Below are positions 22,810-64,000 of a stretch of DNA of 64,000 nt, in pieces (the stretch's first letter is position 1; each line of letters opens with the position of its first letter). The notes under the pieces were generated by a model. The model saw only the letters and a list, made by a program, of their open reading frames with translations. It was not told the origin of the DNA and made no database searches. The translations under genes and the position numbers were made by a program. Source of the DNA: Leadbettera azotonutricia ZAS-9 (GTDB taxonomy: Bacteria > Spirochaetota > Spirochaetia > Treponematales > Breznakiellaceae); assembly GCF_000214355.1 (NCBI RefSeq), contig NC_015577.1:2409389-2473388 (forward strand). The letters run 5' to 3'.

Positions 22810-25800
22810 TTATTTTACAACCATAACCTTACGAATTTCGTCGATGTCCGGACCCACCACACGGATAAAGTACATACCCCGGGCAACAGCGCGGCCTCCC
22901 CTGTTGGTGCCTTTCCAGGCCGCCCGGTATTCACCCGCCTCACGATAACCTCGGTAGAGGATATCCACCATGGTTCCGTCCATAGTAAATACCTGAATAG
23001 TCACTTGTCCACCCTTTGCAAGGTGGTACTGCACATAGGCGGATTCACCGTTATTCGGATTTATCACATTGTTCAAAACAGTGACACCGCTTCGCTGCAA
23101 GGTAATATCGTGGATCTCAAAACCAAAGGGGCGTACCAGACGGTACCAGTTGGCGGGGATAGCCGCCTTAGGAGCAATGTCGAGACGGCCTGCAAAAAGA
23201 TCATCCGGAGAACCTGAAAGATGGAAAAAGAAGTCCAGAATTTTGCCGCTGTCATAATTTGGTTCATCTTTGCTAAACTTGTACTGAAAAAGAATGCTTC
23301 CCGCATTCCCGTCAGGCGATCTGGCAGGAGGGTTGAACCAGAAGTAAGGAACTATATTGGTAAAATAAGGATTGGTTTCAGTATTCGGCGGAGAAGGAGG
23401 AATTGCTATATCCCGGGGCAACCAAAGACCGTGATCCAACCGGTTAAAGCCCTGAGTCCTATAAGTCTGATTGACACTATAATCATAAACAATTTTCGGA
23501 ACTATGGAACTTGAAGCAAGGTTATCGTTCAGCCTTGCCTGAAGCACAGAATCCCGCTCTTCAAGGTATTTCTTCCCTGTGAATTCCCAAATAAGCCCTG
23601 TATCCGAACCATCCTGGCCCCAGAACGAATCGGCGTCTAGCGAAGGAATATTCGCATTGGAGGACTGATCGTACCTTGCCCATACAGGCCATACAAAATA
23701 CCGGGTATCAGTACCATTCGAAGGGGGCACGGAAATGAGCACATCGGTAACACGATGGGTTGCATAACCCGGAATACCGGAAGAAATATCATAGGTTTTG
23801 TTAGGCGGATAAACTATGCCGGCGGGGTTGTCGGTATCTATTACGATTTTATAAGGCTGGAATGCTCCGCCATTGACTTCATAATTATAATTTTGAGGAT
23901 ACTTAGGATGAGGATACATAAAATAGTAAGGCCGCGTTGAGGATGGAGTGCATAGATCTTCTACCCGCACAGCCAGATCTACTGCATTATGAAGCGTAAA
24001 ATATTGCATTTCTGCGGCAAGGTCTGAAACACTATACCCCGTAGTCAAATCCATGCGGAATTCACGGTATTCATCTGCGTCAAGCGATTCAAGAGTCCCC
24101 GAAGAAGCGGGACTGTTCACACTTACGGAAAGGACCGCGCTTGAATCAAGCTTTTCGGATAATTGGAAGAATAGTTCCGGATGTTCCGGTATCGCGAGGG
24201 CATAACTTATACGCGGCGCTGCAGTATCCGTAGTAATCCCTTTATCCTGAGCCGGATCGCTTGCTTTTTGCGGAGGCGGGTTTCCAATTATTGTATATCC
24301 TGTAGCAAGATCCTTTAAGGAAGTATTGCGTACAATTTCCCATTCAAGAGTTACGTCCGAGTCTGTATAAGGTTTTTCTTCCAAAAACACATAGATAGAA
24401 TCCAAATCATGGTCAGGAGAAGAAGTAATATACTCTTCTACCCTCCGGTATCCATTGGCTTTAACTTTATACGGCTCACCGGTATGCTTGTTTCTGACAT
24501 TTATTTCAAAGTCAGAAAAATCCCCGTTAAGATCAAATGCGGACTGTAGGCGTATCCTGTCTATTCTTCCATTATGGTTTGAATCTTCAGTAAAGGAATA
24601 AAAGAAATTATTAATTATAAACCAGTTAACATTAAAACGGTTGTCAGGCGCAGTAAGGTGGGCATAATTTCTTTTGGCAGGATCAGGCTCAAGAGGATCT
24701 ATAAGCACAGGGTCATTGCCTATATTGATTTTATCTATCAATACATATGGGAAGGCGGAAATATAATAATTTCCGGAGCCATCGGATTCGGAGGGCACCG
24801 GGATTTTAGTAGCCGAATAACTATAAAAAATCTCAAGATGGTTTATTATCATTTCCGCGCTTGGGTTTAATGAAAAAAGCCAGAAATGTTCATTGGCGTC
24901 ATTAGGCGGAAGCCATTGAGGTGAATTTGGATAAACCCCTGTATTGGCCTCATTTTTGTCATTTTCCCTGGTCAAGGTAATGGCTGTACTGTGATCTGGA
25001 AATAGATCCATTGTATTGGGTGCTATAAAGAGGCCGCCATAAATAGTATGTCCGGCTGTAGCAGCATCTACCCAGTTTGAAAATTTTAGTATTGCCTTGT
25101 TCTCATGGCAGGCAAGAATCCACCAGGTTGTGTCTCCGCTGATTGTATGGCTTACAGCGGCTCCGGTATATGAAGAATCTCCAATTTCTACCATGCTTTT
25201 ATTGTAATTAAATTTTCCCCCGGATTTTTGGATCCAGTTTTCGTTGACAATAATGCGGGGGTAATAAGCTGCAGAATAAGGAAGCGGGGGGATTACGGAA
25301 TTGGTCCCAAGCTCTGCATTATTCCCTATGGTTATACTGCCCTTAAAGACCGTATTGGTAAAAATAATTGCTTTTGAATCATCTTCAACAACAAGATTGC
25401 CTAAGGTAACCTGGGGTATAAATGGAGAGGCGATATTTTCGCGTACCCGTAATTGTTTTGCGGCAGTGCTATTCATGACAAGGGTAAGGTCTTTTATTCC
25501 ATTAGGCGAAGCGCCTGTATCAAAGTCATAATTTATAAAAACATTACCCCTAGCTATTATTTTATTTGCTTCATTTATTTCAATTTTATGATTGGCAGCA
25601 GGAGCATTATAAAAATCCTCAGTTTGGAGTATAGCGCCTTTATCCATAATCAATGTTCCATTGAGCCCTATAAATCCTTTTGAAAAAGCAGGCGTTGTTG
25701 CAGGAGCCGTAATAACAGTTCCACCCATCTGCCAGGAAAAAGAAGGCGATGGGGATGCGGTTCCGATAGAAAGATGAAGTTCGTTAGCCGGACTCGTAAG

Positions 25801-28800
25801 GGTTTCAGGCTTTATTTCCAAAGTCATAGCATCCATCTGAATTACATCACCGGTAAGCTGAACAATATTTGGATGTGTAGTGGCTGGCGCTGTCGGTTCG
25901 CTTCTATTTTCGATAATAACATTGCCCAGGGGGGATGCTACGTTATGCTGGAATGTTTGTATTTCACTCATAGGAACAATATAGTCACCACGGAGTACAA
26001 TGGTATTATGACGGTGGTAAAAAATACCCAGATCAGCAATCTGGCCATTAAAGACGATGGCATCTTCAGGGTCGCCAGTGAGAGGCACACGGTTATTACC
26101 ATTCAGATAACCAGCGGCTCCTGAATAATTGCCATTAAAGATGATTACCTCTGTATAAATGCCTGTTTCTCCTGCTGTAATGGTCCCGGTATTTGTGGTG
26201 GTTCCGCTAATGGTCAAGGTAGTACCGGGCTGAATATCACCGTAATTACCCACTGCAAAAGTTCCGGTATCTTTAATATAAATAGTGGTACCGGTTATCA
26301 GGGTATTGTTTACTGTTAGGTTTACCCCGCTAGTTGATGCTGTTCCAAAAACAAAACTCCCGGAATAATCCTGAGTTCCCTCGAACGTCGTCATTCCCGT
26401 TCCGATGGTCTGGGCGAAACTTTCAGCCCTTACCCCCGCGTTAAATGTAACATCTTCTGCGTTGGAAACGGTAATGGCTCCAAGCCGGCTCACGCCGGTT
26501 CCACCTATCGCACCGAATACGACAATATCTCCTGCGGCGCCGGTATCAAGGATCAGATTTTTGCCCGCACCGGTAATTGGTCCTTCGATAGTAATACCGG
26601 CGGCAGTGATAATATTGGCAGCAGTGTTTGCCAGCGCAATAGGCCCTGCGCCGGTCTGGGTAAAGGTACCGTTTATAACAATATTCCCGTTCAGTGTAAT
26701 GGTTCCTGCACCATTGGTAAGTCCAAGATTTCCTCCTGGTACAACATCATCCACTGTCTGTAAGCTAATACTTCCTCCGCTGCCTGCAGAATTCAAGATA
26801 ACATTATCAATTAAAGTTAAAGGAGCGGCAAAAGTGATTTCGGCTTTTGCGGATACAACATTTGTCGTAGTGATATTTGCCCCTATCTGATTGGTTCCTC
26901 CGGAATTGATTTGGGAAAAAACGTCCCCGGAACTAATAGTCGCTCCTGTATTTACACTGAGGGTACCACTATTGTCAAGAGTTATTGAACCTGTGGTGGT
27001 CAGAGTATTATTCAAGGTCAAATCGTTACCGGTAAACGCAAAGTCGCCGGTATAATTCTGTATTCCGTTAAAGGCCGTTGTTCCAGTTCCCGCAGCTTGG
27101 GTAAAGCTGACGGCAGCAACCGCCGCACTGACGCCAAAGGTCACATTCACGGCATTGGGAATCGTTATCGTTGTCCCGGCCGTCATTGTATTATTAACCG
27201 AAAGATCCGTTCCGGTAAACGCAAAGGAGCCGCCATAATTCTGAGTACTATTAAAGGTTGTTGCACCTGATCCTGCGGCTTGGGTAAAGCTGGCGGCGTA
27301 AACAGCGTTTTCGAAAGCTGCATCAGCTGCATTACTAACTGTTATATCACCCAGACCGAGAGAGGTGGTTCCCATATCACCGTTCACGTTTATATGCAAA
27401 CTGGTACTGGTATTTTTGGAATCCAGGGTTAAATCATTATTTTGTCCGGCGGTCCCCTCAACAGAAACAAGATTAATCCCGGCGGCAGTGATGTTTCCAC
27501 TTCCCCGTAGAATTGTTAACGGGGATGTCGTAGTAAAGTATGCAGCATCCCCCATATTGATTGTGGCTGTGCCCGAGACATCGAGTAGCGCCCAGAAACG
27601 AACATTACCCGAACCGGGTTTTAAAGTAAGATGGTTGACAGTAGGACCGGTATAGCTAAAAGAATTGTAAAATTCTATAAAGCCGCCGGTTCCTAAAGTA
27701 CTATCCGCCTCCAGCGTCTTGGCTGTGGCATCTGAAACATTTACAAAATAGATACTTTTATTACTCTTGGTCTTTAAGAAAACCTGCGCTCCCGTTGCTG
27801 CTGAATTAATTTTAGCGGCAGAACCGGGAAGATGGGTATCCGCTGAGGGGAATGTTCCGGAATAATAAATTATATCCCTTGCTCCCCGGGAACTAATATA
27901 AATATGTCCCCCGGGGGCTGGTCCTGTAGCGGACATAGCGGCATAACTACCTGTAAGATCATCCAGCTCCAAATAGATATTCCCGGCGGTGGCATGAGTA
28001 CTTCCGGTTCCACTCACATTATTCGCTTGAATTACTATTGATTCATCTGCTATACCAGTAACAGCTATCGTTGAACTCGGACCTATTGTTAGATCACCGC
28101 TTCCACTATCCGGCCCGGCGATAATAGTCAAGGTTTCGGCTGCCAGGGCACCATTGGAAAATATAATAGCATTATTAAGAGGAGCAGCATTATTTGTTTC
28201 TATTTTTACTGCCCGGACTGATCCTGTGTAGTTGGTATTTATGTCCGCACTTACCGATATTGGTCCGTTTGCGGTTATATCCACTGTCCCGTTGCTTGCT
28301 ATACCACCGGAACTTATTGTCACTTCACCGTTATTTGTTGCAATTAGAGTAACATTTCCTACACGCGCGCCACTGGTTCCTATTGCACCGTTTACCGTTA
28401 TTGTTCCACTTGCATTTACATTTAGTGATCCTACCGCACTTACACCGCCTATAGCTAACGCCTGGCCGTTCTTGAAGTCTACATCTCCGCCTGCCCCGGT
28501 TACCGTAAATGTATCTACTTCGTTTGTGGTATTATCCAGATCTATCGCACCTGCGGAATCTACCGTCAGATTCATACCAGTTATTATACCGTTCCCGCTT
28601 ATCCCGTCGTCCCCTGTCAGCGTTACCGTCCCGGCATCAGACGTTACTCCCGTTACAGACAGGGTCCCGCTCTCCGTTACCTCTACGGCCCCACCGCTGG
28701 TTTCATTGACCGCAGTAAGAGACAGGGCTCCCCCCGACGCATTCGTAAATTCTATATCCCCCGTGGGTGTTCCCTCGGTATTATTCAGTTCCGCGCTCAC

Positions 28801-31566
28801 TGTTATCGTATTATTCCCGCTCAGTGTTATTCCGTCCTGCGCGTTTACCGTTAGTGTCGTCCCGCTTATTATTCCGCTCTCGTGTACCGCGCCTCCGCTT
28901 GAGGTCAGCTCTATAGGCGCTCCTGCTGCTGTAATATCCCCGTTCCCGCTTATCCCGTCGTCCCCTGTCAGCGTTACCGTCCCGGCATCAGACGTTACTC
29001 CCGTTACAGACAGGGTCCCGCTCTCCGTTACCTCTACGGCCCCACCGCTGGTTTCATTGACCGCAGTAAGAGACAGGGCTCCCCCCGACGCATTCGTAAA
29101 TTCTATATCCCCCGTGGGTGTTCCCTCGGTATTATTCAGTTCCGCGCTCACTGTTATCGTATTATTCCCGCTCAGTGTTATTCCGTCCTGCGCGTTTACC
29201 GTTAGTGTCGTCCCGCTTATTATTCCTGTCTCGTGTACCGCGCCTCCGCTTGAGGTCAGCTCTATAGGCGCTCCTGCTGCTGTAATATCCCCGTTCCCGC
29301 TTATCCCGTCGTCCCCTGTCAGCGTTACCGTCCCGGCATCAGACGTTACTCCCGTTACAGACAGGGTCCCGCTCTCCGTTACCTCTACGGCCCCACCGCT
29401 GGTTTCATTGACCGCAGTAAGAGACAGGGCTCCCCCCGACGCATTCGTAAATTCTATATCCCCCGTGGGTGTTCCCTCGGTATTATTCAGTTCCGCGCTC
29501 ACTGTTATCGTATTATTCCCGCTCAGTGTTATTCCGTCCTGCGCGTTTACCGTTAGTGTCGTCCCGCTTATTATTCCTGTCTCGTGTACCGCGCCTCCGC
29601 TTGAGGTCAGCTCTATAGGCGCTCCTGCTGCTGTAATATCCCCGTTCCCGCTTATCCCGTCGTCCCCTGTCAGCGTTACCGTCCCGGCATCAGACGTTAC
29701 TCCCGTTACAGACAGGGTCCCGCTCTCCGTTACCTCTACGGCCCCACCGCTGGTTTCATTGACCGCAGTAAGAGACAGGGCTCCCCCCGACGCATTCGTA
29801 AATTCTATATCCCCCGTGGGTGTTCCCTCGGTATTATTCAGTTCCGCGCTCACTGTTATCGTATTATTCCCGCTCAGTGTTATTCCGTCCTGCGCGTTTA
29901 CCGTTAGTGTCGTCCCGCTTATTATTCCGCTCTCGTGTACCGCGCCTCCGCTTGAGGTCAGCTCTATAGGCGCTCCTGCTGCTGTAATATCCCCGTTCCC
30001 GCTTATCCCGTCGTCCCCTGTCAGCGTTACCGTCCCGGCATCAGACGTTACTCCCGTTACAGACAGGGTCCCGCTCTCCGTTACCTCTACGGCCCCACCG
30101 CTGGTTTCATTGACCGCAGTAAGAGACAGGGCTCCCCCCGACGCATTCGTAAATTCTATATCCCCCGTGGGTGTTCCCTCGGTATTATTCAGTTCCGCGC
30201 TCACTGTTATCGTATTATTCCCGCTCAGTGTTATTCCGTCCTGCGCGTTTACCGTTAGTGTCGTCCCGCTTATTATTCCTGTCTCGTGTACCGCGCCTCC
30301 GCTTGAGGTCAGCTCTATAGGCGCTCCTGCTGCTGTAATATCCCCGTTCCCGCTTATCCCGTCGTCCCCTGTCAGCGTTACCGTCCCGGCATCAGACGTT
30401 ACTCCCGTTACAGACAGGGTCCCGCTCTCCGTTACCTCTACGGCCCCACCGCTGGTTTCATTGACCGCAGTAAGAGACAGGGCTCCCCCCGACGCATTCG
30501 TAAATTCTATATCCCCCGTGGGTGTTCCCTCGGTATTATTCAGTTCCGCGCTCACTGTTATCGTATTATTCCCGCTCAGTGTTATTCCGTCCTGCGCGTT
30601 TACCGTTAGTGTCGTCCCGCTTATTATTCCGCTCTGCGTTAACGCCCCGCCAGTGGTCAGGACTATACTTCCTAATGAGCTTAGCGCGCTTCCTATCTCA
30701 AACCCGCCTATATCGGTATAGCTTATCGCACTTGGCGCTGTTCCCGATGTTTGCAGAGTAGTTATATCGTTGTCTGTAAGTTCAAGGGTAAAGTCTCCGC
30801 CGCCCCCAAGTTCCAGCGTGACTGCGGCAATGGCCCCAGTGCCGCTTTGTGTTACAGGCCCTGCGCTTTTAAGTACCACCGTATTCCCTACGATACCATA
30901 TCCCTCCAACACTATCCCGTCGCTGCCGACATCAATAGTGACATCGCCTCCGCTAATGTAAGCGCTGTTGCTCTGAGTTACAGCAGTGGCAGCGCTCAAG
31001 GTTCCCCCCGCGCTAGTAATAACCCCGCCGTCCTGAATGATATTTGTGCCGGAAACCTTGTGAACCCCAATGCCAAGCGCCCCGTCATTTGTATTTAGCA
31101 ATAATACAGTTCCTGTAACAGTGAGATCGGTCATAAGCGTCGCTATGGTACTGCCCGTCTTGTTTACCGTCACATTCATAATGTCTGTTGTACCACTGAG
31201 GGTTATGTTCTGCGCTCCGGTACCGTTCAGGGTTAATAGCGTAGACACCACAAGCCCTCCGGAGCCCACAGAGTTAATCAAATCCCCGCTGACTGTCAGA
31301 TTAGCCACGCTTAGCACTCCGGCGCTTATTGTCAGATTGCCGTTGACGACAAGAGATGAAGGTACATTTGGATTCGTACCTGTGCCGCTAGTAGTGTTAA
31401 TTATTAAGTTATTGCCATCTGCTGCCGTATAAGCGATGCCGCCGTACCAATTACCTGGGGTAGCCCAAACATCGTCTGTGGTTCCTCTCCATTCAAAATC
31501 GACTCCCCACAAGGCGAAATTCGCGAAAAATATACCAAATACAACGGCAATCCAGAGTTTCTTCAT
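22810..31566 (-). CDS. Giant secreted repeat protein with FlgD-like C-terminus
   Basis: A protein of 2,918 aa that I do not recognise as a named family. The N-terminus is a signal peptide (MKKLWIAVVFGIFFANFALW) followed by W-rich residues with a GNWYG pattern. The first ~1,900 residues are dominated by short beta-strand repeats rich in T, S, G, N and V (LTVNNTL, GTITLNG, ITAAGI), typical of filamentous-haemagglutinin or beta-helix adhesins. Residues of about 310-995 are nearly six copies of a 117-residue unit. The last ~80 residues, VQYHLAKGGQVTIQVFTMDG and GYREAGEYRAAWKG with MYFIRVV, resemble FlgD Ig-like or secretion tails. No autotransporter barrel, LPxTG or transmembrane anchor is seen. 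Adhesion or matrix function is inference. Confidence 0.8.
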   Translation of the reverse strand: MKKLWIAVVFGIFFANFALWGVDFEWRGTTDDVWATPGNWYGGIAYTAADGNNLIINTTSGTGTNPNVPSSLVVNGNLTISAGVLSVANLTVSGDLINSVGSGGLVVSTLLTLNGTGAQNITLSGTTDIMNVTVNKTGSTIATLMTDLTVTGTVLLLNTNDGALGIGVHKVSGTNIIQDGGVITSAGGTLSAATAVTQSNSAYISGGDVTIDVGSDGIVLEGYGIVGNTVVLKSAGPVTQSGTGAIAAVTLELGGGGDFTLELTDNDITTLQTSGTAPSAISYTDIGGFEIGSALSSLGSIVLTTGGALTQSGIISGTTLTVNAQDGITLSGNNTITVSAELNNTEGTPTGDIEFTNASGGALSLTAVNETSGGAVEVTESGTLSVTGVTSDAGTVTLTGDDGISGNGDITAAGAPIELTSSGGAVHETGIISGTTLTVNAQDGITLSGNNTITVSAELNNTEGTPTGDIEFTNASGGALSLTAVNETSGGAVEVTESGTLSVTGVTSDAGTVTLTGDDGISGNGDITAAGAPIELTSSGGAVHESGIISGTTLTVNAQDGITLSGNNTITVSAELNNTEGTPTGDIEFTNASGGALSLTAVNETSGGAVEVTESGTLSVTGVTSDAGTVTLTGDDGISGNGDITAAGAPIELTSSGGAVHETGIISGTTLTVNAQDGITLSGNNTITVSAELNNTEGTPTGDIEFTNASGGALSLTAVNETSGGAVEVTESGTLSVTGVTSDAGTVTLTGDDGISGNGDITAAGAPIELTSSGGAVHETGIISGTTLTVNAQDGITLSGNNTITVSAELNNTEGTPTGDIEFTNASGGALSLTAVNETSGGAVEVTESGTLSVTGVTSDAGTVTLTGDDGISGNGDITAAGAPIELTSSGGAVHESGIISGTTLTVNAQDGITLSGNNTITVSAELNNTEGTPTGDIEFTNASGGALSLTAVNETSGGAVEVTESGTLSVTGVTSDAGTVTLTGDDGISGNGIITGMNLTVDSAGAIDLDNTTNEVDTFTVTGAGGDVDFKNGQALAIGGVSAVGSLNVNASGTITVNGAIGTSGARVGNVTLIATNNGEVTISSGGIASNGTVDITANGPISVSADINTNYTGSVRAVKIETNNAAPLNNAIIFSNGALAAETLTIIAGPDSGSGDLTIGPSSTIAVTGIADESIVIQANNVSGTGSTHATAGNIYLELDDLTGSYAAMSATGPAPGGHIYISSRGARDIIYYSGTFPSADTHLPGSAAKINSAATGAQVFLKTKSNKSIYFVNVSDATAKTLEADSTLGTGGFIEFYNSFSYTGPTVNHLTLKPGSGNVRFWALLDVSGTATINMGDAAYFTTTSPLTILRGSGNITAAGINLVSVEGTAGQNNDLTLDSKNTSTSLHINVNGDMGTTSLGLGDITVSNAADAAFENAVYAASFTQAAGSGATTFNSTQNYGGSFAFTGTDLSVNNTMTAGTTITIPNAVNVTFGVSAAVAAVSFTQAAGTGTTAFNGIQNYTGDFAFTGNDLTLNNTLTTTGSITLDNSGTLSVNTGATISSGDVFSQINSGGTNQIGANITTTNVVSAKAEITFAAPLTLIDNVILNSAGSGGSISLQTVDDVVPGGNLGLTNGAGTITLNGNIVINGTFTQTGAGPIALANTAANIITAAGITIEGPITGAGKNLILDTGAAGDIVVFGAIGGTGVSRLGAITVSNAEDVTFNAGVRAESFAQTIGTGMTTFEGTQDYSGSFVFGTASTSGVNLTVNNTLITGTTIYIKDTGTFAVGNYGDIQPGTTLTISGTTTNTGTITAGETGIYTEVIIFNGNYSGAAGYLNGNNRVPLTGDPEDAIVFNGQIADLGIFYHRHNTIVLRGDYIVPMSEIQTFQHNVASPLGNVIIENRSEPTAPATTHPNIVQLTGDVIQMDAMTLEIKPETLTSPANELHLSIGTASPSPSFSWQMGGTVITAPATTPAFSKGFIGLNGTLIMDKGAILQTEDFYNAPAANHKIEINEANKIIARGNVFINYDFDTGASPNGIKDLTLVMNSTAAKQLRVRENIASPFIPQVTLGNLVVEDDSKAIIFTNTVFKGSITIGNNAELGTNSVIPPLPYSAAYYPRIIVNENWIQKSGGKFNYNKSMVEIGDSSYTGAAVSHTISGDTTWWILACHENKAILKFSNWVDAATAGHTIYGGLFIAPNTMDLFPDHSTAITLTRENDKNEANTGVYPNSPQWLPPNDANEHFWLFSLNPSAEMIINHLEIFYSYSATKIPVPSESDGSGNYYISAFPYVLIDKINIGNDPVLIDPLEPDPAKRNYAHLTAPDNRFNVNWFIINNFFYSFTEDSNHNGRIDRIRLQSAFDLNGDFSDFEINVRNKHTGEPYKVKANGYRRVEEYITSSPDHDLDSIYVFLEEKPYTDSDVTLEWEIVRNTSLKDLATGYTIIGNPPPQKASDPAQDKGITTDTAAPRISYALAIPEHPELFFQLSEKLDSSAVLSVSVNSPASSGTLESLDADEYREFRMDLTTGYSVSDLAAEMQYFTLHNAVDLAVRVEDLCTPSSTRPYYFMYPHPKYPQNYNYEVNGGAFQPYKIVIDTDNPAGIVYPPNKTYDISSGIPGYATHRVTDVLISVPPSNGTDTRYFVWPVWARYDQSSNANIPSLDADSFWGQDGSDTGLIWEFTGKKYLEERDSVLQARLNDNLASSSIVPKIVYDYSVNQTYRTQGFNRLDHGLWLPRDIAIPPSPPNTETNPYFTNIVPYFWFNPPARSPDGNAGSILFQYKFSKDEPNYDSGKILDFFFHLSGSPDDLFAGRLDIAPKAAIPANWYRLVRPFGFEIHDITLQRSGVTVLNNVINPNNGESAYVQYHLAKGGQVTIQVFTMDGTMVDILYRGYREAGEYRAAWKGTNRGGRAVARGMYFIRVVGPDIDEIRKVMVVK
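28589..30633 (-). repeat. 351-bp tandem repeat array inside the giant protein gene (5.8 copies)
   Basis: Copy boundaries recur at exactly 351 bp: the same cccgcttattattcc block is at 28861, 29212, 29563, 29914, 30265 and 30616. Copies look nearly identical at the DNA level, including third positions. The one variant I see is a Ser or Thr codon at each unit junction (after VHE): in coding order after the first copy, T, S, T, T, S. The last copy is cut after GISGNG. The unit encodes 117 aa with SGIISGTTLTVNAQDGI at its start. Such near identity points to recent expansion or gene conversion; copy number probably varies between strains. Confidence 0.95.
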
Positions 31567-32219: not shown

Positions 32220-32489
32220 ATGAAAGAAACGGATACATGGCAGCTTTACACTGCCAAAAATAAATTGAGCCACATCGTAGAACGCGCCGGGAATACGCCG
32301 CAAACCATTACGGTTCGCGGGAAAGAGACGGTCGTCATTCTGTCATGCCGGGAATACCAAAAACTTACGGCGCCCAAAACGAACCTTGCCGGGTTTCTTT
32401 GCGGTTCCCTTGATGACGGCAATGCGCCCGATTTTATACGCGATAAAACAACAGAAGAACGGGGAACGCGTCTTGAATTACCTGGTTGA
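32220..32489 (+). CDS. Phd/YefM-type antitoxin
   Basis: An 89-aa antitoxin of the Phd/YefM type. The N-terminal domain is clear: WQLYTAKNKLSHIVERA followed by PQTITVRGKETVVILSCREY and QKL, the pattern of dimerising DNA-binding antitoxins that repress their own operon. The C-terminal acidic tail should wrap the toxin. It starts with ATG at 32220. The overlap with the PIN toxin gene is 17 bp. It lies between two broken transposase copies, in a small island. Confidence 0.9.
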   Translation: MKETDTWQLYTAKNKLSHIVERAGNTPQTITVRGKETVVILSCREYQKLTAPKTNLAGFLCGSLDDGNAPDFIRDKTTEERGTRLELPG

Positions 32490-32883
32490 TACCAATGTGC
32501 TTTCCGAACTCGGAAAAAAACTGCCAAATCCCGGCGTTGTTACATTTATGAATTCATTGACCCAGTCATCGCTTTACATCAGTGTTGTTTCCCTTGGCGA
32601 AATTGCAAAAGGCATTGAGATGGCATCTGACATTAACAAAAAAAATCAATTATCCGCTTGGTCTGAAAAAATTTGCCATTGGTTCGATGGAAATATCATA
32701 AACCTTGATCAACCAATTTTTACTGAATGGGGGCGCCTGGCCGGTTCCCATAACAGGACGCTGCCGGTACTGGATTCCCTCATAGCCGCAACTTGCCTGA
32801 ATTATCACTTCACGTTACTAACAAGAAACGTAAAGGATTTTGCTGATATAAAAGGGCTGGCCTGTCAAAATCCCTGGGCCTGA
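32473..32883 (+). CDS. vapC: VapC-type PIN-domain toxin ribonuclease
   Basis: A PIN-domain ribonuclease of 136 aa. The N-terminus NYLVDTNVLSELGK carries the first acidic residue (Asp6 from the TTG start), then SLGEIAKG holds the glutamate, and VLDSLIAATCLNY and TRNVKDF the later acidic residues. The start is the TTG at 32473, with GGGGA at 32461-32465 eight bases upstream; other starts would extend the protein beyond the PIN fold. It overlaps the antitoxin by 17 bp, the usual operon arrangement. A Phd-type antitoxin with a PIN toxin is a known combination. Confidence 0.9.
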   Translation: MNYLVDTNVLSELGKKLPNPGVVTFMNSLTQSSLYISVVSLGEIAKGIEMASDINKKNQLSAWSEKICHWFDGNIINLDQPIFTEWGRLAGSHNRTLPVLDSLIAATCLNYHFTLLTRNVKDFADIKGLACQNPWA

Positions 32884-32978
32884 TTATCACTTTTTTTAAG
32901 CTTTTTAAAAAAAACGCAGAAAAAATGAAGCGCCATGCATCCCAATGCCATATATAGGTAAACGGAGCGCAGTGACGC

Positions 32979-33667
32979 ATGAAACCATTCTTTCACAAAG
33001 TCCGGTACGACCCGGAAATCATGCGGCAGGCCAAAGCCAACGCCGCCGAAGGCAAACTCCTGGATGTTACTTTGGACGTGGTGTTTAAAGCACTCCTTTC
33101 AGGGGATAACGAAGACAGCCGCCTGGCCCGGCAGTCCCTCCTCTCAAGCTGCATCCACAGGCCCGTAAAGGATGCAAAAGTTCAAAACCCCGAGATACTC
33201 CCCGAGTTCCTCGAAGGCAAAACAGCCATGCTTGATGTCCATGTTACCTTTAACAACAACGAACAGGCGGACATTGAGATGCAGATGAATAATTCCGGCG
33301 AAGACCTTAAAAACCGCGCCATTTTCTACGCCTCCCGCCTTGTTTCGGACCAGGGATATAAAGGCCATTATTACCGGAGTATGAAACGGGTCTACCAGAT
33401 TTTCTTCTTTAATTTTACGTATTTCCCGGAAAGGTCCAGTTCTAGGAGGTAGGAAGCATGCGTGCAGAACAGGCAATAAAGAAGATGAACCGGGACTATG
33501 AACAATGGGCCCGCGCCCTATTCCGCGAAAAGGCCGATTTAGACTACCGGTCAGGCATGTATGGCGCTAGGCAAAGCGGGATAGAAGAAGGCCGTGAGGA
33601 TATCCTCTCCCTGATGGACCAGGGCTACACCGCCGAGCAAATCCGCGCCAAGCTGAAGCAGAAATAG
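32979..33667 (+). pseudogene. PD-(D/E)XK nuclease-family transposase with internal deletion
   Basis: Two ORFs in different frames. The first (32979-33452, 157 aa) contains the family N-terminus: LDVTLDVVFKALLSGDNEDS, then GKTAMLDVHVTFNNNEQADI followed by EMQMNN, where D and E-x-Q supply the nuclease site. It ends at FFNFTYFPERSSSRR. The second (33458-33667, 69 aa) is the C-terminal segment (EGREDILSLMDQGYTAEQIR). The roughly 70-90 residue middle normally found between them is absent. A perfect AGGAGG precedes the second ORF, so it could be translated. The element is inactive by this reading. Confidence 0.8.
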
Positions 33668-47326: not shown

Positions 47327-50176
47327 ATGGCTGGCTTTGCGTCTCTCCTTTCAGAACCGTTTTTCTCTATCCAGTATGATCCGGAAAAGGCATGCTTTGC
47401 GCGGAACATCCCCCGTAATGCCGAAGATCTGGGCGGAGGAAAGTTTAGGCGGGATGGAGAATCCTTCAGGCTGCCTGAAGATCATGCCGGGGAATATCAG
47501 ATTTTTGAAAGCAAGATTATCAATGCCAGGGATGCGGCGGCCCTTGCCAGGAGGGGGTATAACCCGCTGATTAAGACAGGGCCGAGCATGGCTGAACGGG
47601 GCGACCGTCTTATGGAATTGGGGATAAATGGCGGCCTCCCGGCGCTGGGCAAAAAAATGCGTCCCGGCGCCAGGGTCGATATCCGGAAACTTCCCCAAGA
47701 GGCAGAACTCTGCATCATCTGGCAGGAAAAAATCCCCCAGGCCAAGTGGCTGCCCCTTGAAGGGCTTCCCAATTACAGGTTCTATGACAATAAAATTTAC
47801 GAAGTTATCCCTGACGACGCCTTATCCCGGCTTTTTCCGCTGCGGCCTGACGGCAGCCGTTCCGCCCTTGTTTTAAAGGATGAGGAGATACCGGCTTTTG
47901 CGGATGATTATGCAAAGCTCATCTATGTATTTGCGGAAGAAAAACTCTATAGCTTCCTTTCCCAGAACAATCTTTTTGTGGACGGGGCAAAAATTTCCCT
48001 CATTCTTCGCTGTGCCCCTGTAATGGAAAATGGCGTGGGCAGGGCTATGGCTTCTCCTGCATTAAAATATGGGAAAAAGCTCTACTCGCCCCAGGTCTTG
48101 TCAAAAAAGTTCCGGCAAAGGTACATGGCACTTGATAACCAGTGGGTAAGGCGGGAAGCCCTGGAAAGCATAGGCATTGGCCCTTTGGGCAGGTACATTT
48201 CCGGGGAAGCCCTCTCGCCATTCAAAGTCAAGCCAAAAGAAATCATTCAGAGGGGAAGCGAAAAGACCCAGGGACTTTGGCAGGGTTTTGAATGGGACAA
48301 GGATCGCTGGGTCCGGTATGGAAGCGAAAATGAAATATTTTGCAGCCATTTGGAATTCCTCAGAGTCTGGGGCATACAAGGCGGAATAGTTTCGGGGGGC
48401 AGGGAAAAAACTGCATCCTACACTGCCGAATGGCTCAGATCCATTGAAGGCGAAACAAGCAAACAAAGAGTGTTACTCATAGTGCCAAAAAGTTTTTGGG
48501 ATCACTGGCTCAAAAAAGAGCTGCCCCGGCTTTTTTTTGAGCGTCATGACAGCGCGGCAGCAGTATGGGACCCGGCCTTCAGGGGCATAGGGGTTGCCTT
48601 TTACAGCGAGATTTCCAAACACAAAAACACCGTACCCTGGGATATTATTGTCCCCATAGGAATGGAAGAAGCCCTTGCAGGGGAAACAGGATTCAGGGAC
48701 GATCTTTATCAGGCTATTTGCCAAATACCAGCCCGGCTCAGGCTGGGGGTCTTCTTCAGCCCTGCGGAAATTTACAAAGTCAATAATTCAAAAACCCTTA
48801 AGGCTTTTTTTGGCATCAGGGGCAATTTAACGGAATTCGAGAAATACTTAATCCGCGAATGCGGCGATTTTCTTTCTGTTCCCCAAGGCTTTGAATATGG
48901 GGGCATAAATATTTTAAGGCCTCCAAGTCCCTGGGGTAAGGACCAGAAACTGCCGGATAATTGCTTTGTTATTGGAAGCGGCCGCTTCATTATTGAATCC
49001 CGGTTTCAGAATATTCCTTATCACTTTGTTTCGGAAGCATCAGACAAAAAGCTCAGGGATATCATCCTCTGCATGGGGGGCAGAAAACCCGAGGAAGCCA
49101 TGGCCGAGCTTGGGCAATTCCTGATTAAAGCTCAAAGCAAACAAAAGGAATTAAAAAAATACCTCCCCCAATGGCTGCTGGATTTCGCAGTTATATATAA
49201 ATGCCCTCTGGCAGATTTAAAAGACTTTTTGGGATTTGAAAATACCCCTCCGATTCTGCGGGATCTTTATCTGCATAAAAAATATATTGAAGAAAACAAT
49301 ATCCTTAAGTTTAAGGATTTTAGCTTTCTCATCCCCCAAAAAATCCTCGTCGGCGCTTTCCGCAGAAGCGATGACGGACATCTCCTTGACGAAGCCATTG
49401 AATCGGCTGTCAACACAGCTGACAGAATGCTCCGTTCAAATTATGGAAAGAAACTTTTGGAATTCTTTTATCCCCTTCCGGCAAGAAAAGAAAGCTTCAG
49501 GGCCTTTGAAAAAATAGACGGTATGGGGAAAAATGTTTATACAGCTGAATGGATTTCTTTTAGCCATCACAAGCCCCTGAAAGCATTTCTGGGCGCCCTC
49601 TCTGTCTGGATTGAACACCGGCTCCGGAAGGAAAAGGATTTTGGGCCCTCTGAAAACACGCCAATGCTTGATCCGCTCTGGGGTTACCTTTCAGGTCTGG
49701 GACAGGAACCTAAGGCAGAAGATTCAATTGTACGGATTGAACTGGAATCGGAAAAAATCAAGCGCCTCAGGGAAGAATCGAATGCGGTCATGGAGCTGCT
49801 CAAAGTGGAAAATCCCCTGGATTATTCCGAGTATAGGATGGAAAATTTTGAGACCCTCTCTTCCGCAATCCTTCTCGGGGACGAAACAGAGGCTGGGGTT
49901 AAAAACAATTTTTCCATGCCTGCTTTTATCGAAACCCTGGGGGAAGCCGACAAGGCATGCCTTGAACTTATATCCGCAGGGGCTTCTCAAAAAGATATTG
50001 AAGAGCTTGCCCTGGGTTGGGGTACCATGGCGGAAGTCATTATTGATGGGATAAACGAACACTTTATAGAAGAGAAAGGGGACCTCTTGATTGAGAATAC
50101 GCTAGACGAAAAGCCGCTTATTCAAGCAGAATACAGGGATGAGGTTTTATGGGCCCTAACATTCCAAAAAGACTGA
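47327..50176 (+). CDS. TerB-C-like protein with degenerate SF2/SNF2-like region; first gene of a three-gene system
   Basis: A 949-aa protein I do not recognise as a named family. Near residues 348-370 a P-loop-like GGIVSGGREKTASYTAEWL has EKT in place of GKT; VLLIVPKSFWDHWLKKE follows as in SNF2 helicases, and WDIIVPIGMEEA (about 438-449) occupies the DExH position without it. It appears to be a helicase-like domain that lost ATP binding. The C-terminus (about 900-932), MAEVIIDGINEHF with GDLLIE, resembles TerB-C. The middle is mostly helical. It overlaps the ATPase gene by 28 bp. GTG at 47324 is an alternative start. DNA processing or defence is inferred from the partners. Confidence 0.55.
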   Translation: MAGFASLLSEPFFSIQYDPEKACFARNIPRNAEDLGGGKFRRDGESFRLPEDHAGEYQIFESKIINARDAAALARRGYNPLIKTGPSMAERGDRLMELGINGGLPALGKKMRPGARVDIRKLPQEAELCIIWQEKIPQAKWLPLEGLPNYRFYDNKIYEVIPDDALSRLFPLRPDGSRSALVLKDEEIPAFADDYAKLIYVFAEEKLYSFLSQNNLFVDGAKISLILRCAPVMENGVGRAMASPALKYGKKLYSPQVLSKKFRQRYMALDNQWVRREALESIGIGPLGRYISGEALSPFKVKPKEIIQRGSEKTQGLWQGFEWDKDRWVRYGSENEIFCSHLEFLRVWGIQGGIVSGGREKTASYTAEWLRSIEGETSKQRVLLIVPKSFWDHWLKKELPRLFFERHDSAAAVWDPAFRGIGVAFYSEISKHKNTVPWDIIVPIGMEEALAGETGFRDDLYQAICQIPARLRLGVFFSPAEIYKVNNSKTLKAFFGIRGNLTEFEKYLIRECGDFLSVPQGFEYGGINILRPPSPWGKDQKLPDNCFVIGSGRFIIESRFQNIPYHFVSEASDKKLRDIILCMGGRKPEEAMAELGQFLIKAQSKQKELKKYLPQWLLDFAVIYKCPLADLKDFLGFENTPPILRDLYLHKKYIEENNILKFKDFSFLIPQKILVGAFRRSDDGHLLDEAIESAVNTADRMLRSNYGKKLLEFFYPLPARKESFRAFEKIDGMGKNVYTAEWISFSHHKPLKAFLGALSVWIEHRLRKEKDFGPSENTPMLDPLWGYLSGLGQEPKAEDSIVRIELESEKIKRLREESNAVMELLKVENPLDYSEYRMENFETLSSAILLGDETEAGVKNNFSMPAFIETLGEADKACLELISAGASQKDIEELALGWGTMAEVIIDGINEHFIEEKGDLLIENTLDEKPLIQAEYRDEVLWALTFQKD

Positions 50177-51459
50177 GCGCCGCCATTCTCAATTCCCTCC
50201 AGGGGGGTGTAGTGCCCCGGGTGGGTCTTGAATATGTGGCAGTGGGCCGGAAGCGGGAAATTGAAACCGTCCTCAGGGATCTCGAAAACATCAGCCAGGG
50301 GGCGGCTGCCTTCCGTTTTGTTTCAGGATCATACGGTTCGGGCAAAAGCTTTTTCCTTCAGGCTCTGCGGAATTTTGCCCTGGAAAAAGATTTTCTCGCT
50401 GCCGACGCCGACCTTTCCCCGGAGAAACGCCTGTCCGGTTCGGGCAACCAGGGTCTCGAAACCTACCGTGAACTCATGGAAAGGCTGAGCACCAAGGTTC
50501 GCCCCGAGGGCGGCGCCCTTGAGTCCATGCTGCAAAAATGGATTGCCAGGGTTAAGACCGAGCTAATCAAGGAAGGCCTTGCCCCCTCTGACGAGAATTT
50601 CGATTCCCAGGTGGAAATAAAGATATTTGAAACTATTAACGAAATGCAGGATTACGCCCACGGCTACGATTTTGCCGCTGCTGTCTCAACTTATTACCAT
50701 GCCTATGTCCAGGGGGATGAAGAAAAACGCAATGCCGCCCTGCGCTGGCTGCGGGGCGAATTTGCCACAAAGACCGAAGCAAGGGCTTTTCTCCCGGTGG
50801 GGGAAGTCATCACCGACGAAAATTGGTATGAATATATCAGGCTCTTTGCGGCCTTTTGCGCCCGCATTGGGTACAGGGGCTTTCTCATCTTTATTGATGA
50901 ATGTGTCAATCTCTATAAAATAAGCAACAGGCAATCCAGGGAAAACAACTACGAAAAAGTCCTGGCAATGTTCAACGATGTGATGCAGGGCAAGGCCGCA
51001 AATCTGGGTATCTACATGGCGGGCACTCCCCAGTTTATCGAAGACGAACGCAGAGGCCTTGCAAGCTATGCCGCCCTAAAAAGCCGTCTTGCGGAGAGCC
51101 GCTTTGCCCGCGAGGGCTATGCCGATTCAGGCAGCCCCGTGATACGCCTTGACCAGCTAAGCAGGGAAGAAATATATGTGCTTCTTGAACGCCTCACGAA
51201 CATCCATGCACAGCATTACGATTACTCCGTGCATCTTGGGGAAAGGGAGCTGCTTGCTTTTCTTGAACTGGCATTCTCTGTTCCCGGTGCGGAAGAATTT
51301 ATCACCCCCAGGGAAATCACCAGGGATTTCCTGGGCCTTCTCAATATACTCCACGATGATCCAAACGCGGATTTTGATGTTTTGATTAAACGGGAAAATA
51401 TAATCCATACCTCGGCAGGGCACGACACGGACAATCTCTATGCAGACTTCGAGCTCTAG
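50149..51459 (+). CDS. BrxD-like P-loop ATPase (DUF2791 type)
   Basis: A 436-aa ATPase. Walker A is GSYGSGKS at residues 60-67 and Walker B is FLIFIDE near residue 246, with AGTPQF (about 290) in the sensor I position. The N-terminus (RLSAAILNSLQGGVVP, then VGLEYVAVGR) matches the BrxD/DUF2791 ATPases of BREX type 2 and of Ter-associated systems. It overlaps both neighbours: 28 bp upstream and 20 bp with the helicase. BrxD-type ATPases usually act with an Lhr-type helicase, which is encoded next. Exact role is unknown. Confidence 0.8.
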   Translation: MGPNIPKRLSAAILNSLQGGVVPRVGLEYVAVGRKREIETVLRDLENISQGAAAFRFVSGSYGSGKSFFLQALRNFALEKDFLAADADLSPEKRLSGSGNQGLETYRELMERLSTKVRPEGGALESMLQKWIARVKTELIKEGLAPSDENFDSQVEIKIFETINEMQDYAHGYDFAAAVSTYYHAYVQGDEEKRNAALRWLRGEFATKTEARAFLPVGEVITDENWYEYIRLFAAFCARIGYRGFLIFIDECVNLYKISNRQSRENNYEKVLAMFNDVMQGKAANLGIYMAGTPQFIEDERRGLASYAALKSRLAESRFAREGYADSGSPVIRLDQLSREEIYVLLERLTNIHAQHYDYSVHLGERELLAFLELAFSVPGAEEFITPREITRDFLGLLNILHDDPNADFDVLIKRENIIHTSAGHDTDNLYADFEL

Positions 51460-53638
51460 GCTGGCCCCGTTTATCAGGGAGTACATCTACGATAAAAAAT
51501 GGCAGTCTATCAAGGAAATACAGGAAGACGCCATCAAGGTTATTCTGGATACTGATTCCCATGTACTCATTGCGGCAGGGACAGCGGCAGGTAAAACCGA
51601 GGCGTGTTTTTTCCCCATACTCACCCTGATTGAAAAAGAAAGCAAATCATACACCGGGGGCATCAATGTCCTCTACATAGGCCCTCTAAAGGCATTGATA
51701 AACGATCAATTTGAACGCCTCTCCCCTCTTTTGGAAAGGGCAGAAATCCCTCTTTGGCGATGGCATGGCGATGTAGCCCAGGGGCATAAACACAAGCTTC
51801 TTGAAAACCCCGGCGGGATACTGCAAATCACCCCGGAATCCCTGGAAGCTCTGCTTCTGAGGCAGCCTCAAAAAATTAAGCTGCTTTTTAATGACCTGAA
51901 ATTTGCGATCATTGATGAAGTCCACGCTTTTTTAGGAGAAGACAGGGGTGCCCAGCTCATCTGCCTGCTGGAGCGTATCAAAGGCATATCCGGGTGCGAT
52001 CCCCGCAGGGTCGGGCTTTCGGCAACCCTGGGAGATTATTCATCTGCCCTTGAATGGCTCAAAGCCGGATCTGACAGGAATACTGTCATTATTTCTGAGG
52101 GTATTGACAGTAACACTGCGAAAAAACTGCCAAGAAGAAAAATAAGCCTGGCGGTGGATTTTTACAAAGATTCGCGTTTCTACCCCGCGCTTTATGACCA
52201 ATGCCAGGGCGATTCTGGAGTTCCTTTCAGGAAGTGCATCATCTTTACAAACAGCCGGGTCGAAGCAGAAGAAACTACCGCGAATCTTAAGGCAATAGCA
52301 AGAGAGAGAAACGAAGAGGATCATTACCATGTGCACCATGGCAGTATCGCTGCGAGCCTCAGGGCAGAGGCCGAGCAGAAGCTTAAAGAAAGCGGAGCCC
52401 AAACTATTGCGGCTACCGCAACTCTGGAACTGGGAATAGATATAGGCCAGCTTGATCGCATCATTCAAATAGGGGCCCCCATGGGGGTTTCATCATTTGT
52501 GCAGCGCCTAGGCCGTTCAGGTAGGAGGAGCGGTGTATCCCAGATGTACTTTAGCTCCCGGGAATACCCGGAAAACGCTTTCAATATCCTGGGGAACATC
52601 CCCTGGGAGCTCCTTAAAACTATCGCGGTCATTCAACTCTACCTCGAGGAAAGATGGATCGAAGATTCGCGTCCCAAGCCCCTGCCATTCAGTCTCCTCT
52701 GCCACCAGACCTTCAGCGTCCTGGCTTCTCTTGGGGAACACAGCTTTGGGGATCTTTCAAACCAGCTCCTTGCCCTTCCGCCTTTTCGCGGCATTGGCGA
52801 AGAAGATTATGCAACCCTCTTGCGGTATCTCATAACAAATGGCTTCATCGATGTTATTGAGGGGGGAAAACTTATCATAGGCCTTGAAGGCGAAAGGATA
52901 GTCAACCATTATTCGTTTTATTCTGTCTTCCCGGACGAAGAAGAATTCCGGGTGTGCTTTGGCGGCAGGGAAATAGGAAAAGTGAATTTTATCCCTCCCG
53001 AGGGCAGCGGCCTTGTTCTTGCTGGCAAGAGCTGGAAAGTTACCTATGTTAATTTAAAATCCCGGGAAATAAATGTCAGCCCCGGTTCAGGAGAAGTCTC
53101 AAAAATATGGCAGGGCGGCCTTGGAAATGTCCACCTCCGCATAGCCCGCCGCATGAAACAGGCTCTTTTGGAAAAAGTACGCTACCCCTATTTATCTGCC
53201 TCCGCTGCAGAAAGAATGAATGAAGCCAGGCAATACGCAGAAGCAATGAATATAAGGAATACTGATTTTATTCCCATCAGCGAAGATGATTCAAGCCATA
53301 ACTTCATACTCCTCCCTTGGCTGGGGAGCCGGGGCATGAGGACTCTCTACCTTGCCTTGCAAAAACAAATATACCGGAAAGATCTGGGAATAACGTTTAT
53401 TGAACGCAAAAATGAATATGCTTTAAGCATCAGCTCGAAACTTGGTATTGATATGTTTGAAGAAATCTTGCTGGGCATTATTAATACAGTAAAAAATCCT
53501 GAAGAAATGCTGGACTCCGCAAGAATCCCCTACACTGATAAATACGATTACCTCCTCCCGCCGGAGCTGCTTTTAAAGCAGTATGCGGCCAATATGCTGG
53601 ATTTGGAGGAAGCCGGCTTGATAACAGGGCATACTTAG
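51440..53638 (+). CDS. DEAD/DEAH-box helicase (Lhr/BrxHI-like)
   Basis: A 732-aa superfamily 2 helicase. Walker A is AAGTAAGKTEA at about residues 45-55, DEVH at about 158-161, LSATLGD near 192 and motif VI QRLGRSGRR near 355. The second RecA domain contains ATLELGIDIGQLD. The architecture resembles the Lhr-type helicases that pair with BrxD. It overlaps the ATPase gene by 20 bp and its stop overlaps the convergent kinase gene's stop by 4 bp. A longer Lhr is encoded at 62278 and is a different protein. It probably unwinds DNA for the three-gene system. Confidence 0.85.
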   Translation: MQTSSSRLAPFIREYIYDKKWQSIKEIQEDAIKVILDTDSHVLIAAGTAAGKTEACFFPILTLIEKESKSYTGGINVLYIGPLKALINDQFERLSPLLERAEIPLWRWHGDVAQGHKHKLLENPGGILQITPESLEALLLRQPQKIKLLFNDLKFAIIDEVHAFLGEDRGAQLICLLERIKGISGCDPRRVGLSATLGDYSSALEWLKAGSDRNTVIISEGIDSNTAKKLPRRKISLAVDFYKDSRFYPALYDQCQGDSGVPFRKCIIFTNSRVEAEETTANLKAIARERNEEDHYHVHHGSIAASLRAEAEQKLKESGAQTIAATATLELGIDIGQLDRIIQIGAPMGVSSFVQRLGRSGRRSGVSQMYFSSREYPENAFNILGNIPWELLKTIAVIQLYLEERWIEDSRPKPLPFSLLCHQTFSVLASLGEHSFGDLSNQLLALPPFRGIGEEDYATLLRYLITNGFIDVIEGGKLIIGLEGERIVNHYSFYSVFPDEEEFRVCFGGREIGKVNFIPPEGSGLVLAGKSWKVTYVNLKSREINVSPGSGEVSKIWQGGLGNVHLRIARRMKQALLEKVRYPYLSASAAERMNEARQYAEAMNIRNTDFIPISEDDSSHNFILLPWLGSRGMRTLYLALQKQIYRKDLGITFIERKNEYALSISSKLGIDMFEEILLGIINTVKNPEEMLDSARIPYTDKYDYLLPPELLLKQYAANMLDLEEAGLITGHT

Positions 53639-62277: not shown

Positions 62278-64000
62278 ATGCTGCCCTTCCACCCTCTAAT
62301 CAACTCCTGGTTCACTGATACCTATGGCAAGCCCACAGCGGTGCAGACCGAGGCGTGGCCCCTCATTGCAAGTGGCGAACATGTGCTTGCTCTTGCGCCC
62401 ACAGGGAGCGGGAAAACCCTCACCGGGTTCCTGGCGGCTATCTCCCGTTTTGCAGAAGGCATATACCCCGCAGATAAACTGTCAGTCCTTTATGTGTCGC
62501 CCCTCAAGGCTCTGAACGAGGATATACGGCGCAATCTTACCGAGCCCCTTGAGGGGATTAAGACGTATTTTGAAAAAGCAGGGGAGACTTTCCCTGCGGT
62601 CAGGGTCGAGACCCGTTCGGGCGATACTCCCCAATCCGAGAGGCGGCGTTTTCTTTTGCGGCCTCCTTCAATCCTGGCCCTCACGCCTGAAAGCCTGGGT
62701 ATCCTCCTCCTCAATCCGAAGGGCAGAAATATACTTTCCAATGTCCGCTATGTAATCCTCGACGAGATACATACAGCCATAGGGACCAAGCGGGGCTGTT
62801 TCCTCTCATGCCAGATCGACAGGCTTGCCATGAGCGCCGGAGAATTCCAGAGGGTGGGGCTTTCGGCAACGGTTAAGCCTCCCGAAGTAGCAGCGGCATT
62901 TGCTGGCGGCCTTAAGGCAGTGAAACCGGGGCGCTATGAGCCGAGGAAAGTTCACATTGTTGCCCCCAAAACAGACAAGCGAATTGATTTCTCGGTCATC
63001 TTCCCTGACGAACCCGAGGTCATTGATGAAACCAAAGCCCAGCGTTACGGAAGGCGCTATACCGCGTTGATTCATTTTCTTATACAAAGGATACGCACAC
63101 ACCGTTCCGACAAGGGAGCTTTTTGCAACGAAGTTTCCCGCGCAGTATTGGTGTTTACCGATTCCAGGCGGAGGGCGGAGCGGATAAGCTTTTTGATAAA
63201 CCAGGATGCGGGAGAAACCCTGGCTTTTACCCATCATGGGAGCCTTTCAAAGGAAGTACGCAGGGCGGTTGAAAAGGGGCTTACAGAAGGGACTATTCCC
63301 TGCGTTGTTGCCACAGGCTCCCTGGAGTTGGGCATAGATATAGGAAATGTGGATGAGGTGATTTTGGCAGGCAGCCCGGGCGCGTCATCCACTGCATTGC
63401 AGCGCATTGGAAGGTCCGGTCACGGTGTGGGTATGACCAGCAAGGGCTGCCTCATTCCCTTTCATGGGTTGGATCTGCTCCAGGCAGCCGCGATTAGCGG
63501 GGCTGTAGAGGAGCGGGAACTTGAAGATACCAAAAGCATTGAAAACCCCCTGGATCTTCTGGCCCAGATCATACTTTCTTTATGCACTGAAAAAGACTGG
63601 AACGAGGATGAATTGTACGATCTCCTCCGTGGTTTTTATGTGTACCGCAGCCTTTCCCGATCCAGCTATGACAGTGTAGTAAAAATGCTTACCGGGGCTT
63701 ATGAGGAAACCCGTTTAAGGGAATTGAAGCGGCGTATCTTCCGTGATGATGAAACCGGAATGCTTGCTGCTGCCCCAGGCGCCCTGCTCCTGCTCTACTC
63801 TTCCGGCGGTGTTATTGCAAGCAGGGGCTATTATTCATTAAGGCTTGCCCCAGGGACTGAAGGGGCCGGCACGAAAATCGGCGAACTGGATGAGGAATTT
63901 GTCTGGGAACGGCGGCTGGGCGATGTATTTGACTTCGGCAATTCGTCCTGGAAGATAACCGCCATTGGAGCGGAAGCAGTCGAAGCCGTTCCCCTGCCCC
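62278..64000 (+). CDS. lhr: Lhr-type ATP-dependent helicase, 5' part
   Basis: An Lhr family SF2 helicase whose 3' end lies off the window. The frame is open for 574 codons from the ATG at 62278, with AAGGAG just upstream. Walker A is APTGSGKT at residues 40-47, DEIH at 162-165, GLSATV follows, and the second RecA domain has ATGSLELGIDIGNVDEV with QRIGRSGHG. A winged-helix and Lhr core domain would follow. It is a different and longer relative of the helicase at 51440. It lies 37 bp after oppF and may be co-transcribed. It may act in DNA repair. Confidence 0.93.
   Translation, partial: MLPFHPLINSWFTDTYGKPTAVQTEAWPLIASGEHVLALAPTGSGKTLTGFLAAISRFAEGIYPADKLSVLYVSPLKALNEDIRRNLTEPLEGIKTYFEKAGETFPAVRVETRSGDTPQSERRRFLLRPPSILALTPESLGILLLNPKGRNILSNVRYVILDEIHTAIGTKRGCFLSCQIDRLAMSAGEFQRVGLSATVKPPEVAAAFAGGLKAVKPGRYEPRKVHIVAPKTDKRIDFSVIFPDEPEVIDETKAQRYGRRYTALIHFLIQRIRTHRSDKGAFCNEVSRAVLVFTDSRRRAERISFLINQDAGETLAFTHHGSLSKEVRRAVEKGLTEGTIPCVVATGSLELGIDIGNVDEVILAGSPGASSTALQRIGRSGHGVGMTSKGCLIPFHGLDLLQAAAISGAVEERELEDTKSIENPLDLLAQIILSLCTEKDWNEDELYDLLRGFYVYRSLSRSSYDSVVKMLTGAYEETRLRELKRRIFRDDETGMLAAAPGALLLLYSSGGVIASRGYYSLRLAPGTEGAGTKIGELDEEFVWERRLGDVFDFGNSSWKITAIGAEAVEAVPLP

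Follow-up and report, generated by a model that had tools for sequence, protein, structure and literature searches.

A Shango operon with a predicted SNF2-derived extension of SngA in Leadbettera azotonutricia

A central question raised by this locus is whether three overlapping genes, which encode a helicase-like protein devoid of catalytic motifs followed by an ATPase and a helicase of kinds known from BREX, constitute a defence unit of their own or belong to a recognized system; and, in either case, what the first protein contributes. We analysed the locus within a window of 64,000 nucleotides from L. azotonutricia ZAS-9, the genome of which is a single contig of 3.86 Mb.

Identity of the operon

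The ORF coordinates agree with the original prediction, made from the sequence of the window, that the three genes form one operon: all are open frames in one shared direction and each overlaps the next (Table 1). The first gene starts at either a GTG (47324) or an ATG (47327), the latter being the start chosen originally. The second and third products had been described as a BrxD-like ATPase and an Lhr/BrxHI-type helicase with intact motifs, and both descriptions hold. The ATPase has Walker A GSYGSGKS at residue 60 and Walker B IFIDE at residue 247, and the helicase has AGTAAGKT (46), DEVH (159), SAT (194) and QRLGRSGR (355). No nuclease was recognized among the three operon products.

Profile matches and gene order together indicate that the operon is Shango (SngA–SngB–SngC), a known anti-phage defence system. 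The second ORF matches the PADLOC SngB model (PDLC03959) with E = 1.4e-176 over 436 aa, compared with 3.2e-50 for BrxD, and matches PF10923 in Pfam with E = 2.6e-161; it reaches 170 bits against the NCBIfam BrxD model, below the cut-off of 350 bits. The third ORF likewise scores higher as SngC (PDLC03960, E = 4e-215) than as BrxHI (3e-128), and the first matches SngA (PDLC03958, E = 9.9e-24) in a region confined to residues 594–941. The A-B-C order on one strand that Shango requires is present, and SngA bears TerB-family domains, in the form of TerB_C and the SngA profile match, with a degenerate TerB_N. Membership of BREX was rejected: a PADLOC search of the 29 other proteins of the window lists no PglZ, methyltransferase or BrxC, consistent with the earlier observation that neither PglZ nor a BREX methylase lies nearby, and PglW and PglX were not recognized in the window either. 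The proposal of a self-contained antiphage unit is therefore supported in its defensive character, but the unit, previously left unassigned and regarded as loosely akin to BREX, is Shango according to PADLOC. Both this name and the degenerate TerB_N had been overlooked, and an operon that had been read as an unknown unit now has an assignment.

Table 1 Positions in the window of the operon genes, their overlaps and the parts of SngA
Feature	Coordinates	Strand	Basis
sngA, long variant, 950 aa	47324..50176	+	ORF; directly 5' of sngB, as in relatives
sngB, 436 aa, AAA+ ATPase, BrxC/BrxD family	50149..51459	+	PADLOC SngB, PF10923
sngC, 732 aa, SF2 helicase, SngC/BrxHI clade	51440..53638	+	PADLOC SngC, intact motifs
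sngA/sngB overlap, 28 bp	50149..50176	+	ORF coordinates
sngB/sngC overlap, 20 bp	51440..51459	+	ORF coordinates
SngA residues 179-334, resembling the SNF2-associated segment before the motor in bacterial SNF2 proteins	47858..48325	+	hhalign
SngA residues 325-517, predicted single degenerate SNF2-type RecA1 lobe	48296..48874	+	AF2 model, Foldseek, VIA-align, hhalign
GGIVSGGREKT, lost Walker A site, SngA residues 353-363	48380..48412	+	aligns to SNF2 MGLGKT
SngA residues 588-630, TerB_N remnant	49085..49213	+	canonical SngA profile, domain E 0.0018
SngA residues 794-941, TerB_C domain	49703..50146	+	PF15615 E 3.2e-31

Shango (SngABC) is reportedly to be credited to Millman 2022 and Johnson 2023. 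It blocks phages, as shown in E. coli and Pseudomonas (PMC10250203). The literature searched contains no Shango mechanism and no account of an SNF2-derived part of SngA; the system is already known, and the novelty is the SngA variant, absent from that literature. A scan of public genomes with an SngB profile returned 515 relatives, 80 of which were kept for analysis; their loci span Spirochaetota, Bacillota, Pseudomonadota, Cyanobacteriota, Planctomycetota, Verrucomicrobiota, Actinomycetota, an archaeon and others. The three genes co-occur, as the original prediction implied, and the A-B-C order is nearly universal wherever the contig permits checking. Because the triad keeps this order across nearly all of the ~80 loci, a chance arrangement in the window is excluded.

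The N-terminal extension of SngA

Judged by its domain matches, the C-terminal part of the window SngA is ordinary SngA, comprising a degenerate TerB_N and a TerB_C domain that bears out the TerB-C-like tail described before (Table 1). A Pfam scan of this protein found no TerB (PF05099), and TerB is missing from the scanned Spirochaete and Bacillota SngAs and from one proteobacterial-type copy in the window's family (genome G004); the Pseudomonas-type layout is TerB_N–TerB–TerB_C (L144, 764 aa). PF13208 (TerB_N) is recognized in homologues including L034, L105 and L236. The first ~540 residues form an extension missing from canonical SngA, and some treponemal extended copies start near window residue 220, thus having only its second half. 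Other N-terminal additions occur in unrelated SngAs: PG_binding_1, unrelated to the SNF2-derived extension, in L127 (3837-6980), and a different extension of ~560 aa in L128 (1227-4934). Given these other additions, the N-terminus of SngA resembles a slot with variable content.

The extension is probably composed of an SNF2-associated region and the first RecA-like lobe of an SNF2 remodeler, the second lobe having been lost as far as detected. An AlphaFold2 model of the extension (26 homologues) has a mean pLDDT of 83.5 and a pTM of 0.71, and the top rows of a Foldseek search with the predicted model are all Swi2/SNF2 (best E = 3.5e-6), as are nearly all of the remaining rows. VIA-align of residues 325–517 with CSB gives Z = 14.8 over 181 residues (rmsd 3.8), and this Z value also covers SNF2h and the Sulfolobus SNF2 core. 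In hhalign, residues 343–481 fall in register on SNF2 motifs I–III, pairing GREKT with GLGKT, LLIVPKSF with the LVIAPASL segment, IGMEEA with the DEAQ segment, and RLGVFFSP with ALTGTP. The score of the extension against SNF2 is 33.2, compared with a maximum of 26.2 in 120 shuffles, and 35.1 compared with 25.0 in a second run of 100 shuffles; once the region preceding the motor in treponemal SNF2 proteins is included, the collinear alignment spans SngA 179–481 (score 37.4, P = 0.002). The HH-suite probability for the SNF2 match is low (8–14%), so the claim rests on three lines that concur: the fold search, the register and the shuffles. Profile and fold matches to SNF2 stop near residue 517, and TerB_N/TerB_C lie beyond; a remnant of the second RecA lobe may still be present.

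Several other origins were rejected. The extension is not an elongated TerB_N, as it sits 5' of TerB_N, and kinship with SngC or SngB receives weak scores (22.3 and 15.6, respectively). Canonical SngA aligns with SNF2 over 25 columns only (hhalign score 19.0). Searching the extension directly against PDB sequences with hmmsearch returned nothing, and Foldseek with a model of residues 1–335 alone found no clear match in the PDB, a negative that does not indicate a new fold.

The predicted lobe lacks the motifs of a motor. A motif scan of the 950-aa window SngA yields zero GK[ST] and zero DExH/DExD, as noted originally; GGIVSGGREKT occupies the place of motif I, and both Walker A and DExH/DEAQ are missing at the aligned positions. 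GxxxxGK[ST] was found in the lobe of 0/39 homologues inspected (Treponema relatives and Paenibacillaceae, two phyla), and SngA as a full or active helicase was rejected on this ground. The idea of a dead helicase-like first protein thus survives and becomes more precise, but the dead part is SNF2-type and not Lhr/BrxHI-type, with one lobe detected.

Selection, spread and genomic setting

Purifying selection acts on this lobe without catalytic motifs. In close pairs, dN/dS is 0.03–0.34 for the SNF2 lobe, 0.02–0.25 for the associated region and 0.22–0.44 for TerB_C, and residues 222–334 are the most constrained stretch in most pairs (0.02–0.25). The extension is carried by treponemes of the window's family and by Paenibacillaceae (20/297 genomes) and was found in 0/23 other Shango-bearing genomes. 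Wherever it was examined, it occurs in SngA alone: each of the 17 Paenibacillaceae copies that were inspected lies in SngA, directly 5' of sngB and then sngC where the contig reaches. On the SngB tree the extended forms cluster, requiring 2 changes compared with a shuffled mean of 19.2 (0/500 shuffles as low). Because the lobe Walker A is gone in all 39 homologues, in both groups, its absence is most simply read as an inactivation of the ATP site that came before spread between treponemes and Paenibacillaceae. A lineage in which a dead remodeler lobe is fixed in SngA points to SngA as a targeting or regulatory subunit. Defence annotation also changes, as the current SngA model covers only the C-terminal part of the extended SngAs.

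The copy in the window departs from its relatives within TerB_N, where ~55–75 residues of the core have been lost in frame (window 49040-49130). The W-R-x2-x-R core of this domain is missing in the window SngA and in L094 and is kept by nearly all other homologues, and the window copy may, by its sequence, be impaired or altered in function. We consider it improbable that the operon is decaying in this strain, with SngA inactivated by the TerB_N loss. The missing core would fit decay, as would a PADLOC SngA match that is weaker in the window (9.9e-24) than in L034 (2.2e-38) or L105 (7.7e-105); however, the three frames are open, the SngB and SngC motifs are intact, the deletion in TerB_N preserves the reading frame, and relative to L034 the extension is conserved as much as the remainder of the protein (53% and 50%, respectively).

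Among the 59 genomes searched, counting that of the window, SngB occurs in 13 and SngA in 12. The window Shango has a uroporphyrinogen-decarboxylase-like gene on one side and a phosphotransferase/fucosidase pair on the other, and the right flank in genome G031 is the same. In many treponemes (L094:812-4229, L098, L100, L104 and L034), Shango directly follows a gene for a conserved secreted protein of ~300 aa, found in 36/40 genomes, and an SLT/LysM-domain gene. A defence hotspot at that site was rejected, as Shango-less relatives have ordinary genes there (ORFs, by eye). The defence-island context is weak, given that PADLOC recognized no other defence system around the window locus or the loci of relatives. 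This isolation, together with the frequent position of Shango beside the secreted-protein gene or metabolic genes, would suit a locus that serves chromosome maintenance or stress response instead of phage defence. Nevertheless, such a role is very unlikely: Shango is patchy in relatives (13/59), its chromosomal sites differ between related genomes, G004 has a copy of proteobacterial type, and homologous Shango systems are anti-phage (PMC10250203).

The G004 copy (L049) is distant, with 39% identity in SngB, which suggests separate acquisition. Eight viral-collection contigs (L206-L213) have SngB relatives and are perhaps instances of Shango on prophages or cellular flanks; a search of plasmids for Shango copies gave no match. 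In L106 (3868-6896), whose SngB closely resembles that of L098, no open sngA frame was found 5' of sngB, and this sngA is possibly broken. Elsewhere in the window, a second Lhr-type helicase ORF (62278-64000) lies 9 kb 3' of the operon and is cut by the window end; it seems separate from Shango, and strong DpdJ and BrxHI profile matches in the window flanks fit it. A minus-strand ORF of 2918 aa (22810-31566) has the look of a giant surface protein, and GC and AT skew are locally strong near 28–32 kb; short ORFs at 32386-33452 resemble, by eye, a PIN-type toxin and a transposase-like (Rpn) fragment.

Possible roles of the lobe and relation to known systems

We somewhat favour a model in which this is a Shango system with SngA fused N-terminally to an SNF2 pseudo-remodeler, and in which the dead lobe is an ATP-independent docking surface on SngA, the targeting adaptor. 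The functional steps are ones that we infer. SngB, as an ORC/Cdc6-like AAA+ oligomer, would load or activate SngC, the helicase, on DNA that is foreign or disturbed; SngA would direct (or gate) the pair, telling it where to act, with the TerB_N/TerB_C half holding SngB–SngC and the SNF2 lobe docking DNA, nucleoprotein or a partner protein without ATP. SngC would then translocate and disrupt phage DNA or phage replication or transcription complexes, resulting in defence. In BREX, BrxD is an ORC/Cdc6-like AAA+ protein that may load BrxHI, which has wHTH and HAS-barrel DNA-binding domains and an Lhr-like C terminus (PMC12839542). A more specific proposal, which we regard as unlikely, is that the lobe is a recognition device that, in the manner of RapA or CSB but without ATP, binds RNA polymerase or some other machine on DNA and steers the helicase of Shango to the complexes that transcribe or replicate phage DNA. 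If true, a pseudo-remodeler serves as an immune sensor, plugged into the variable N-terminal slot of SngA.

The SNF2-derived part could instead be a regulatory surface, a pseudo-motor that packs on SngC or SngB and blocks the complex as long as no signal from a phage is received. A fold maintained by purifying selection while its ATP site is gone suits a pseudo-enzyme regulator no less than an adaptor, and the Hachiman helicase HamB is reported to restrain its partner comparably (PMC12278908). However, regulation through the extension cannot be general, given that canonical Shango does not have it, and we consider this account rather unlikely compared with docking by an adaptor.

Comparison with known proteins and systems places the locus as follows. 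The predicted RecA1 lobe has the same fold as that of the Swi2/SNF2 remodelers (CSB, SNF2h, Sulfolobus 1z63 and RapA), and the preceding associated region is shared with the bacterial SNF2 type; unlike the remodelers, SngA has lost motifs I and II, has no detected second RecA lobe and is fused to TerB_N/TerB_C. Hachiman, Druantia and Dpd are likewise centred on SF2 helicases, and SngC, BrxHI, DruE and DpdJ form one SF2 clade (PMC12278908), but these systems have other partners, and a nuclease subunit was not recognized in the window operon. The BrxD–BrxHI pair of Type 2 BREX comprises a homologous ATPase and helicase encoded side by side, as in the window, whereas the window proteins score far higher as SngB and SngC and PglZ, PglX, BrxC and PglW were not recognized. 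Shango itself has the same gene content and order, the same SngB and SngC families and the TerB_C of SngA; the window SngA differs in having no detectable TerB (PF05099), a degenerate TerB_N and a ~540-aa N-terminal extension that appears to derive from SNF2.
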